A stretch of DNA of 64,000 nt from Flavihumibacter fluminis (GTDB lineage Bacteria > Bacteroidota > Bacteroidia > Chitinophagales > Chitinophagaceae). Each line of letters starts with the position of its first letter. Position 1 is the stretch's first letter. The position numbers and the translations under genes were made by a program. The stretch spans positions 992,001 to 1,056,000 of the forward strand of contig NZ_JAKEVY010000001.1 in the NCBI RefSeq assembly GCF_021491375.1, read 5' to 3'. Positions 6,726 to 7,566 of this stretch are shown piece by piece. The notes under the pieces were generated by a model. It searched no databases, was not told the origin of the DNA, and saw only the letters and a list, made by a program, of their open reading frames with translations.

Positions 6726-6747
6726 AATTGGACCCTGAAAAAATATA

Positions 6748-6774
6748 AAAGCCCCGGAAAACGGGGCTTTTTTT
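6748..6774. terminator. Bidirectional intrinsic terminator
   Basis: AAAGCCCCG / CGGGGCTTT stem of 9 bp with a 5-nt loop; a T run follows on the plus strand, and the minus strand reads into TTTTATATTTTTT. It serves the aminotransferase and the convergent GIY-YIG gene, whose stop codon overlaps its edge. Confidence 0.9.
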
Positions 6775-7015
6775 AATGCTTTAAAGATTGAATAAAAGAT
6801 CTTCCAACTCCGGACTTTAGCCATTTTTCTCGTGCAATGGCTTCCGATTGCTGAGAAAACGTTTCCAGGTAAATCAACTTCCATGGACGATATCTTGAAG
6901 TCCATCCTTTTCCCAATTCGTTATGCGATAAAAGTCGACCATCCAAATCGGAAGTGTATCCGGTATAATGCTTTTTATGCAGCACTGAAAACAAAACATA
7001 AACACAGTATTCCAT
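6773..7015 (-). CDS. Minimal GIY-YIG nuclease domain protein
   Basis: 80-residue protein consisting only of a GIY-YIG endonuclease domain (UPF0213/YhbQ-like group). The first strand is YVL (GIY position), the second is YTGYT (YIG position), then the Arg in DGRLLSHN, and a metal-ligand Glu is expected in the ETFSQQSEAIAREKWLK helix. The frame is open further upstream to 7189, but that extension translates the tRNA-derived repeats, so I place the start at the ATG at 7015. The gene lies downstream of and in the same orientation as the tRNA-Met and its truncated copies. Small GIY-YIG proteins may be mobile or repair nucleases; the exact role is unknown. Confidence 0.85.
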   Translation of the reverse strand: MEYCVYVLFSVLHKKHYTGYTSDLDGRLLSHNELGKGWTSRYRPWKLIYLETFSQQSEAIAREKWLKSGVGRSFIQSLKH

Positions 7016-7037
7016 ACACTCACTTTTATTCCTGCTA

Positions 7038-7076
7038 TGAACCGCCGTCCGCCTTCGGCGGATAAGAATCTGATGC
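7038..7076 (-). pseudogene. tRNA-Met fragment (middle part only)
   Basis: Reads GCATCAGATTCTTA, then the palindrome TCCGCCGAAGGCGGA, then CGGCGGTTCA. It lacks the 5' half and the acceptor 3' strand and breaks off 22 nt before the GIY-YIG start codon. Confidence 0.8.
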
Positions 7077-7083
7077 CCCCAAA

Positions 7084-7106
7084 CAAAAAAAGCCCACGAA
7101 GGGCTT
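7084..7106 (-). terminator. Duplicated terminator within the repeat
   Basis: Minus strand AAGCCC-TTCGT-GGGCTT followed by a T run; copy of the tRNA terminator at 7176-7198. Confidence 0.8.
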
Positions 7107-7113
7107 AAAAGTG

Positions 7114-7168
7114 TAGCGAGGAGCGGACTTGAACCGCCGTCCGCCTTCGGCGGATAAGAATCCGATGC
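7114..7168 (-). pseudogene. tRNA-Met 3' fragment carrying the palindrome
   Basis: From the anticodon arm to the discriminator base it matches the intact tRNA, except that ACCCGAAGGT is replaced by TCCGCCGAAGGCGGA and the anticodon triplet reads CTT. The 5' half of the tRNA is missing and is replaced by terminator-flank sequence. Confidence 0.85.
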
Positions 7169-7175
7169 CCCCAAA

Positions 7176-7198
7176 CAAAAAAAGCCCACGAAGAGCTT
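7176..7198 (-). terminator. tRNA-Met terminator
   Basis: Minus strand AAGCTC-TTCGT-GGGCTT (one G-T pair) followed by seven T, 7 nt after the tRNA 3' end. Confidence 0.85.
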
Positions 7199-7205
7199 AA
7201 AAGTG

Positions 7206-7279
7206 TAGCGAGGAGCGGACTTGAACCGCCGACCTTCGGGTTATGAATCCGATGCTCTAACCAGCTGAGCTACCTCGCC
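7206..7279 (-). tRNA. tRNA-Met (CAT)
   Basis: On the minus strand a full cloverleaf can be drawn: acceptor GGCGAGG/CCTCGCT (one G-U at the end), D-stem GCTC/GAGC, anticodon arm TCGGA-TTCATAA-CCCGA with one A-C mismatch next to the loop, and T-arm GGCGG-TTCAAGT-CCGCT. The discriminator is A and CCA is not encoded. The anticodon CAT could in principle be a lysidine-modified tRNA-Ile, but the body looks like elongator tRNA-Met. It is the only intact tRNA in the window and is embedded among truncated copies of itself. Confidence 0.92.
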
Positions 7280-7472
7280 ATGTTGTCGAAACCTCTTCAC
7301 TTTGACCATTGCCCTCTATTCGACCAATATTTTTAAGAACTACTTTCTTGAACCGCCGTCCGCCTCTGGCGGATATGAATCCGATGCTCTAACCAGCTGA
7401 GCTACCTCGCCTTGTTGTCGAAACCTCTTCACTTTGACCATTGCCCTCTATTCGACCAATATTTTTAAGAAC
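7242..7472 (-). repeat. 99-bp direct repeat: tRNA 5' half plus upstream region
   Basis: Copies 7242-7340 and 7374-7472 are identical except for one base (7280/7412). Each contains the tRNA 5' half (to the anticodon) and about 60 bp of the region upstream of the gene. The 33 bp between the copies hold the palindrome and a fragment of the T-arm. Confidence 0.93.
7348..7411 (-). pseudogene. tRNA-Met 5' fragment carrying the palindrome
   Basis: Matches the intact tRNA from its first base through the CAT anticodon, then has TCCGCCAGAGGCGGA (7359-7373) in place of the native ACCCGAAGGT, continues CGGCGGTTCAAG and stops. The acceptor 3' strand is missing, so it cannot fold as a tRNA. Confidence 0.87.
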
Positions 7473-7566
7473 CACCTCTCCATGATGGAGATGCTCTCAA
7501 ACGGAGCGCAAAAATAGAGGATTATCACAAAAGATCAAAAAATAGCTGTGCCTTAGTAGGCTTTTT

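Follow-up and report, generated by a model that had tools for sequence, protein, structure and literature searches.

A tRNA-Met gene among palindrome-marked partial copies, next to a minimal GIY-YIG nuclease gene: a probable miniature mobile element in Bacteroidota

Introduction

How does a tRNA-Met gene come to stand intact among truncated copies of itself that all carry one short palindrome, directly upstream of a gene for an 80-residue nuclease? This arrangement lies in a 64,000-nt stretch of the Flavihumibacter fluminis genome (contig NZ_JAKEVY010000001.1, positions 992,001 to 1,056,000), referred to here as the window. tRNA genes are well-known integration sites, and group I introns in tRNA genes sit at the anticodon loop. 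When a homing element inserts, the carrier loses the recognition site. A sequence-only reading of the window, made without database searches, had proposed a small mobile or homing element aimed at the tRNA gene, with a logic like that of REP/RAYT systems but a different nuclease. On the evidence presented below, we think it probable that the locus is a miniature selfish element, built from a minimal nuclease of the GIY-YIG family and a palindrome specific to its lineage, which invades tRNA genes and leaves one working copy behind.

Results

Layout of the locus

The locus runs on the minus strand, in the order promoter-like block, leader, 5' scrap with palindrome, leader and intact tRNA-Met, followed on the 3' side by terminator, copy A, terminator, copy B, an 80-codon GIY-YIG gene and a terminator-like hairpin. 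The promoter-like stretch upstream, CTCTATTTTTGCGCTCC (7503..7520), is common to the same-genus element-free sites; it is present also in genomes G002, G004, G008, G011 and G014, with close variants in G001, G003, G007 and G009. Next come a first copy of a leader (GTTCTTAAAAATATTGG..., 7412..7472) that was not seen at the element-free sites compared, a truncated tRNA-Met consisting of nucleotides 1-38, the 5' half (7374..7411), palindrome 1 (unstranded, TCCGCCAGAGGCGGA when read on the tRNA strand, 7359..7373), and 12 nt of the tRNA 3' part (CGGCGGTTCAAG) with a junction (7341..7358). A second copy of the leader (7280..7340) precedes the intact tRNA-Met (CAT, 7205..7279), the sole tRNA found in the window by ARAGORN or by Rfam at gathering threshold. 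Behind the intact gene lie a hairpin terminator (7177..7198), truncated copy A (7113..7168; 11 nt of anticodon arm, palindrome 2 at 7140-7154 and the tRNA 3' part) with its terminator (7085..7106), and truncated copy B (7038..7076; 11 nt of anticodon arm, palindrome 3 at 7048-7062 and about 10 nt of the tRNA 3' part), which runs into the nuclease gene (6773..7015). A terminator-like hairpin (6747..6770) stands behind that gene.

The repeats first described at this locus are present, with corrections to their extent. The direct repeat carrying the tRNA 5' half and upstream region (truncated copy plus leader) measures 105 bp rather than 99 bp and is 97% identical to 7239-7343. The two 92-bp tandem units (7038-7129 and 7130-7221) are 98% identical, but copy B has neither a terminator of its own nor more than its short tRNA 3' part; the second unit terminates within the 3' part of the intact tRNA, so the truncated copies proper are 7168-7113 and 7076-7038.

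All three palindromes have the form TCCGCC-N3-GGCGGA (7048-7062, 7140-7154 and 7359-7373, with loops GAA, GAA and AGA on the tRNA strand), and each is embedded in a tRNA copy with tRNA sequence on either side. In the upstream copy the palindrome replaces tRNA nucleotides 39-48 and in one downstream copy nucleotides 36-48. The earlier observation that it takes the place of the native anticodon/variable stretch in every truncated copy was borne out: that stretch, ATAACCCGAAGGTCGGCGG, occurs once, in the intact gene (7279-7205), which keeps its native anticodon/variable region and has no palindrome.

Chance does not account for the palindromes and was rejected. The exact sequence occurs at five places in the 4.71-Mb genome, three of them within these 326 bp, and a reversed control pattern has 0 occurrences in the same genome; when two mismatches are tolerated, the count in the window by itself is no higher than chance would give (3, with 1.49 expected). 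The fourth exact copy lies 9 nt upstream of a tRNA-Ser(GGA) (L009 1762-1776, G000:C37:159761, G000 being the genome of the window) and the fifth elsewhere. A two-base-loop version, TCCGCCGCGGCGGA, was also seen 96 nt from a tRNA-Leu(CAG) of this genome (L224 1501-1514, G000:C11:632530), and the same-genus genomes G001 and G006 have a distant mini GIY-YIG gene near a tRNA-Ser(GGA). A motif of the GTTCTT(T) type, presumably resembling the boxA antitermination site, precedes several tRNA copies or nuclease genes, in the window at 7324-7340 and 7456-7472 and at L085, L103, L105 and other loci.

A group I intron was also rejected as an explanation. Such introns invade bacterial tRNA genes, some with homing endonuclease genes (excerpts of PMC3984707). 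The intact tRNA-Met is uninterrupted here, and at gathering threshold Rfam detects nothing in the window but the tRNA.

Element-bearing and element-free sites in the genus

We used the tRNA-Met gene together with its leader to search fifteen genomes of the same genus, and an element was found at this tRNA in 3 of the 15. G005 and G008 have intact nuclease homologues (86 and 80% identity) with the same tRNA units; in G004 there is a single palindrome copy, and of the nuclease the C-terminal part alone. G014 holds a tRNA fragment with a decayed palindrome, with no nuclease match. A plain tRNA-Met is present in G001, G003, G007, G009 and G011 (in the stretch read) and in the unmasked part of G002, where the downstream sequence is partly masked; G006, G012 and G013 (divergent tRNA, 84-88%) and G010 (weak matches) were left out of the site comparison. 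Within the genus the nuclease gene lies behind the last palindrome, not between two.

The empty sites expected in relatives were thus found, and in G008 a tRNA gene is split at the palindrome point. There, the leftmost tRNA half lies directly behind a promoter junction resembling the one at element-free sites and is followed by the palindrome, so it was the tRNA gene itself that was split. After it come another 5' unit with its leader, the intact tRNA and the 3' units. Compared with the element-free alleles of G011 and of G002 (partly masked), this is an insertion in the cognate tRNA gene. The tRNA locus and the nuclease gene of G008 fall on separate contigs (C19 and C2), and we infer their linkage from the repeats in which both contigs end. 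Terminator variants are near-identical within one genome and different between genomes, which suggests that the repeat units recombine frequently. The intact tRNA itself is identical over 75 bp in the element-bearing genomes G000, G004, G005 and G008 and in G001, G002, G003, G007, G009, G011 and G014.

These comparisons bear on the possibility that the nuclease is a classical free-standing homing endonuclease, which would cut the native anticodon/variable site and spread into it when the break is repaired. Since this narrows the selfish-element explanation, the odds of the two overlap; in its strict form we consider it rather unlikely. It agrees with an insertion inside a tRNA gene of which a native copy is kept (G008 against G002 and G011), and fungal mitochondrial mobile ORFs do likewise with gene tails (excerpts of PMC3630166). 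However, the kept tRNA site is intact and the same in element-bearing and element-free genomes, so that an element cutting the native site would expose its own host and self-protection would go unexplained; in addition, palindromes also lie away from tRNAs. The fungal ORFs, found at the tails of atp6, atp9, cox2 and nad3, combine an endonuclease gene (GIY-YIG in atp9) with a partial target copy, keep the target working and leave the displaced native part behind, according to the same excerpts (PMC3630166). The locus described here differs from them in its bacterial tRNA target, in the palindrome on the displaced parts, and in having a whole tRNA copy rather than a tail.

A minimal nuclease under purifying selection

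The gene downstream of the copies lies in the same orientation, as originally read. Its frame (7015-6773, minus strand) encodes 80 aa and matches the Pfam GIY-YIG family (PF01541) over 7021-6773 with an E-value of 5.4e-16, a match that passes the family's cut-off. It is the one such mini GIY-YIG gene of the genome, the other two PF01541 matches lying in 608- and 470-aa frames. Residues Y6, Y17, G19, R27 and E63, which we take to be the catalytic residues of GIY-YIG, are invariant across 12 aligned mini GIY-YIG proteins. Among the three intact same-genus genes (that of the window and two homologues, compared as three pairs of 240-bp genes), dN is 0.06-0.11 and dS 0.41-0.85, giving a dN/dS of 0.13-0.16 (about 0.15) and indicating purifying selection.

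The closest solved structures are those of the UPF0213 proteins 1zg2 (E 3.5e-13) and 1ywl (8.4e-13), followed by SLX1 (5.4e-7 and weaker), a structure-specific endonuclease according to its deposited name. These GIY-YIG proteins are sequence relatives of the mini nuclease, though SLX1 chains are longer (183-324 aa). A preference of the nuclease for branched or hairpin DNA would fit the pattern of targets described below. A search of open-access PubMed Central found no paper pairing GIY-YIG with YhbQ or UPF0213.

Recurrence beside tRNA genes

The window locus is one case of a widespread pattern of nuclease, tRNA and palindrome. We surveyed other genomes with a profile of the 12 mini GIY-YIG proteins, which had been found by similarity and mostly adjoin tRNAs, so that the survey covers this clade rather than all GIY-YIG genes. 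At 1e-8 the profile found a match in 94 of the 149 genomes searched from the order and in 93 of the 148 from the phylum. The order sample (n=90) combined 30 loci, one per genome, with 60 places taken in approximate E-value order, one per cluster, among the matches listed; places at contig ends, same-genus places already taken and one place in a 1469-aa frame were left out.

In this sample a tRNA lies within 200 nt of the nuclease gene at 73 of the 90 loci, on the same strand in all 73 and on the opposite strand in 0, compared with 1 tRNA in the 262,945 nt that lie more than 1 kb away. Adjacency was likewise found at 22 of 27 loci of the phylum sample and 17 of 36 named genome records, where 8 of the 19 misses are at contig ends. 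The nearest tRNAs in the order sample represent thirteen isotypes (Met, Arg, Val, Asp, Leu, Ala, Pro, Ser, Phe, Asn, Glu, Lys and Ile). At the other 17 order loci no tRNA was found within 200 nt, and at 12 none was called by ARAGORN within 700 nt; when these 12 were inspected by eye, six showed tRNA or palindrome remnants (L071, L076, L077, L097, L129, L159) and six did not. Same-strand neighbouring tRNAs were also found in records titled Chlorobiaceae (L183), Dehalococcoidia (L194), Woesebacteria (L190) and Parcubacteria (L193, L195), these names being record titles, mostly of metagenome bins in which single contigs may be misassigned. An assembly artefact was rejected, as the pattern lies inside large single contigs, for example G034:C1 (3.15 Mb) and G302:C1 (3.67 Mb).

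Partial tRNA copies with hairpins at their edges

At loci with a same-strand tRNA less than 700 nt away (n=78 in the order sample), we scored as a partial copy any match of at least 14 nt to the same tRNA within 900 nt, a threshold chosen because 9-nt matches are frequent by chance. A further partial copy of the tRNA was present at 69 of the 78 loci, compared with 3 of 53 outer parts at loci long enough to test. We then counted perfect hairpins with stems of at least 6 at internal edges of the copies, leaving out the tRNA ends. In the order sample 106 of 199 edges have such a hairpin; at the matching coordinate in the intact tRNA it was present in 20 of 199 cases, and at randomly chosen positions in 30 of 995. 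The corresponding counts were 32 of 57, 1 of 57 and 12 of 285 in the phylum sample and 19 of 42, 3 of 42 and 10 of 210 in the named set. At least one edge hairpin was found at 50 of 78 order, 17 of 24 phylum and 12 of 19 named loci (a looser count of 63 of 78 in the order sample includes terminators at tRNA ends). A random dissociation of repeats and nuclease, which the sequence-only reading named as grounds for giving it up, was not found, with the exceptions of the 28 of 78 order loci that lack an edge hairpin under the strict rule and the palindrome scar without nuclease in G014.

The palindromes occupy varied parts of the tRNA. In examples with both copy edges in register, they replace nucleotides 28-44 (four Ala copies), 29-44 (four Met), 30-42 (two Arg) and 39-50 or 42-50 (seven Asp), or are inserted between nucleotides 22 and 23 in the D loop (two Arg copies), and two or three are gathered in different arms of single copies at L072, L122 and L133. 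At L020 a palindrome replaces the D arm of a tRNA-Phe copy that ARAGORN still calls as a tRNA.

Such copies raise the question of whether nuclease and marked tRNAs serve the host, for instance in tRNA gene dosage control or as a decoy against a tRNA-acting nuclease. The purifying selection on the nuclease, the constant tRNA orientation in 73 of 73 near cases, the frequent replacement of a whole arm (as in the Ala and Met copies) and the L020 copy still called as a tRNA all accord with a domesticated function. We nevertheless judge it improbable, given the patchy presence of the system (94 of 149 genomes, and 3 of 15 at this tRNA within the genus), its association with many isotypes, and the half-copies that lack a 5' or 3' end, the arrays, the broken nuclease gene of G004 and the decayed scar of G014.

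Very little probability attaches to the idea that tRNA genes are simply general hot spots of insertion and duplication, at which copies arise by slippage and the nuclease gene is unrelated cargo. tRNA genes do have that reputation as integration sites, tandem units could grow by slippage, and L153 (G063:C53) has about 530 nt with other coding-like sequence between its tRNA-Glu and the nuclease gene. Against this, the hairpins at copy edges are far above both controls, the spacers between tRNA, copies and nuclease gene are mostly too short for another gene in the stretches read, and the class of the palindrome is co-inherited with the nuclease, as set out next.

Palindrome class follows nuclease lineage

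Of the 83 loci at which a palindrome was called, 69 fall into three main classes (TCCGCC..GGCGGA, TCCCG..CGGGA and CCTGCC..GGCAGG), and the 14 loci with other palindrome sequences were left out of the test of class against tree. The tree was built with FastTree from the domain of about 80 residues and has 144 rows, with a few loci entered twice (L161 and L162 repeat the loci of G005 and G008). On it the palindrome class changes 3 times over 69 rows (least possible 2; shuffled minimum 21, mean 25.9), an enzyme-lineage-specific palindrome family of the kind that marks REP/RAYT systems. tRNA isotype (42 changes over 115 rows, shuffled minimum 74) and host family (73 changes over 144 rows, shuffled minimum 90) also track the nuclease tree, far less closely than palindrome class. 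Within single isotypes the class changes twice among 25 Met rows (shuffled minimum 3) and once among 8 Arg rows, a value that the best shuffle also reaches. As called, the TCCGCC class is limited to tRNA-Met, which makes isotype and lineage inseparable for that class; by eye it also occurs, uncalled, at L075 (Phe) and L195 (Glu). The co-inheritance of class and nuclease could come from physical linkage alone. In the TCCCG class, position 7 of the stem pairs in 37 of 45 cases through four pair types (27% expected), and this extension by differing complementary pairs indicates that the hairpin is kept rather than sequence alone.

The TCCGCC palindrome was also commoner in genomes that bear the nuclease, which supports the sequence-only reading. 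Across the 149 genomes of the order, uncorrected for kinship, the mean count of TCCGCC-N3/4-GGCGGA was 2.51 in nuclease-positive and 0.67 in nuclease-negative genomes (p 0.002), while a reversed-pattern control averaged 0.29 and 0.40. Among nuclease-positive genomes 47 of 94 had any such palindrome and 14 had five or more; among nuclease-negative genomes the numbers were 15 of 55 and 1, and in that one genome the reversed pattern reaches 7 as well. Other palindrome classes may explain the 47 positive genomes without it. All 13 genomes whose best nuclease scored at least 105 bits had the palindrome, against 49 of 136 others (p 7e-9, with nuclease-linked copies included and kinship uncorrected), a limit that differs from palindrome class, since the nuclease of G027 belongs to the CCTGCC class. 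Hand counts of unlinked copies gave 11 of 13 against 49 of 136 (p 0.0009), to which we assign no weight because G040, G049 and the 136 others are unfiltered for linkage.

Copies of the TCCGCC class range from 0 in 87 of the 149 genomes through 5 exact copies in G000 to 38 in G088. In G043, 8 of 11 copies had no tRNA in the 2 kb read, and none of the 10 copies read out of 23 in G045 had a tRNA nearby; such dispersed copies led us to reject the palindromes as marks of tRNAs only. The proposal of a mobile or homing element at the tRNA gene is partly supported: the trio recurs at many tRNA genes, but the intact tRNA keeps its native site, which sits poorly with plain homing there, and the palindromes of some genomes are not confined to tRNAs. 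After twelve loci with tRNA remnants had been set aside, 9 of 35 orphan palindromes sat at the tip of an inverted repeat (at least 6 bp) formed by their flanks, where 0.82 was expected from re-paired flanks and the maximum in 2000 trials was 5; seven of the nine come from G045 and one each from G043 and G103, so this result reflects mainly one genome. Two orphan loci, L263 and L272, look like terminators, and at L227 (G058) the palindrome lies within an ARAGORN-called tRNA-Ser gene, by eye at the variable arm.

Of the readings considered, the slimmest chance goes to common REP-like repeats mobilised by a Y1 (RAYT) transposase encoded elsewhere, with the GIY-YIG gene a passenger near tRNAs. In its favour, some genomes have dispersed palindromes, and 111 of 149 contain a Y1 match. 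Against it, the class of the palindrome tracks the GIY-YIG tree, palindrome counts go with GIY-YIG presence, and G000 and G008 have palindromes but no PF01797 (Y1) match at E 0.001, which leads us to reject it for the genome of the window.

Discussion

The selfish-element explanation can be put as a sequence of steps. The nuclease would open a tRNA gene at one hairpin arm, and repair would place the palindrome there and copy in the nuclease gene with a whole or sufficient tRNA copy; the end products of this conjectured reaction are seen in the genomes. One working tRNA gene would remain and the displaced pieces would become palindrome-marked scars. The repeats would then recombine into arrays of 5' or 3' scraps, with eventual loss of the nuclease, and the tandem units, the broken nuclease gene of G004 and the decayed scar of G014 would be traces of such a stage. 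The survival of one tRNA copy may be due to selection removing cells that lose it, which would also explain why the native site is kept in the intact copy although it is the expected target. The palindrome is probably the recognition target of the nuclease or a residue of its reaction, the hairpin mattering more than any fixed sequence. No movement between dated strains was seen.

A broader, more tentative proposal is that these elements represent a new class of transposable unit, which we consider less likely than not. Here a minimal structure-specific GIY-YIG nuclease would move one hairpin into an arm or loop of another. Its preferred targets would be tRNA genes, whose DNA consists of hairpin arms, with terminators and further inverted repeats as secondary ones, and the nuclease gene would be carried along by repair from an occupied copy. 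Such a class would extend through Bacteroidota and, by record titles, Chlorobi, Chloroflexota and Patescibacteria/CPR.

The likeness to REP/RAYT systems, with a different nuclease, that the sequence-only reading drew finds support in the lineage data and in the lack of a Y1/RAYT match in G000 at E 0.001: in both, the lineage of a small enzyme predicts which short palindrome stands next to its gene, and in some genomes that palindrome is dispersed. RAYT systems also keep palindromicity while the sequence varies (excerpts of PMC2817692). There are clear differences, however. The enzyme is Y1 there and GIY-YIG (PF01541) here; an inverted palindrome pair surrounds the transposase gene there, whereas the window has three palindromes, all upstream of the nuclease gene (at other surveyed loci they lie on one or both sides); palindromes here lie in tRNA copies and some at hairpin tips; and REP copies usually exceed 100 per genome (excerpts of PMC2817692), compared with 0-38 for the one class counted here. 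With the RAYT enzyme absent and site loss not seen in the intact tRNA (the native site being replaced in the truncated copies), we file the locus under neither REP/RAYT nor homing. We found no prior description of such an element in open-access PubMed Central papers among the top matches listed for broad queries, and the term GIY was not found in a 2025 REP survey (PMC12306157). The locus and its counterparts at other tRNA genes suggest a kind of miniature mobile element that is apparently undescribed.

If our reading is correct, a common miniature parasite lives on tRNA genes across a major bacterial phylum, easily overlooked because its parts are short, repetitive and pseudogene-like. It would add to the REP-type pairing of enzyme and palindrome a second enzyme family that is not homologous to the first, would show where some of the GC-rich palindromes scattered through Bacteroidota genomes come from, and would account for many partial tRNA copies at tRNA loci and for assembly breaks such as those in G008. 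It would also supply an 80-residue nuclease with a testable preference for hairpins or palindromes.

Several further arrangements of mini GIY-YIG genes were observed in the survey. At four loci of family f21 (L150, L151, L158 and L160) the gene has no tRNA found beside it and lies near palindrome-like stretches, with pieces like GGTTCGGCTCCGCTCACCATGAC or variants. In seven records (L180, L182, L184, L187, L188, L189 and L196; five titled CPR bacteria and two, L182 and L187, titled 'bacterium') GIY-YIG genes stand between inverted repeats of about 20 bp (ACCCCGTAGTAGAATTT ... AAATTTCACTACGGGGT) that resemble transposon ends; no tRNA was found in six of these, and L187 has one 58 nt upstream. 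L105 (G113:C63) consists of two very similar tandem units with intact tRNAs Val(TAC) and Ile(TAT), as if the anticodon had been switched in one. Finally, L202 (G227:C34:6985-9772) has eight mini GIY-YIG genes in tandem, in a genome with 21 matches, and its first spacer, the only one read, contains a palindrome-marked tRNA 3' piece.
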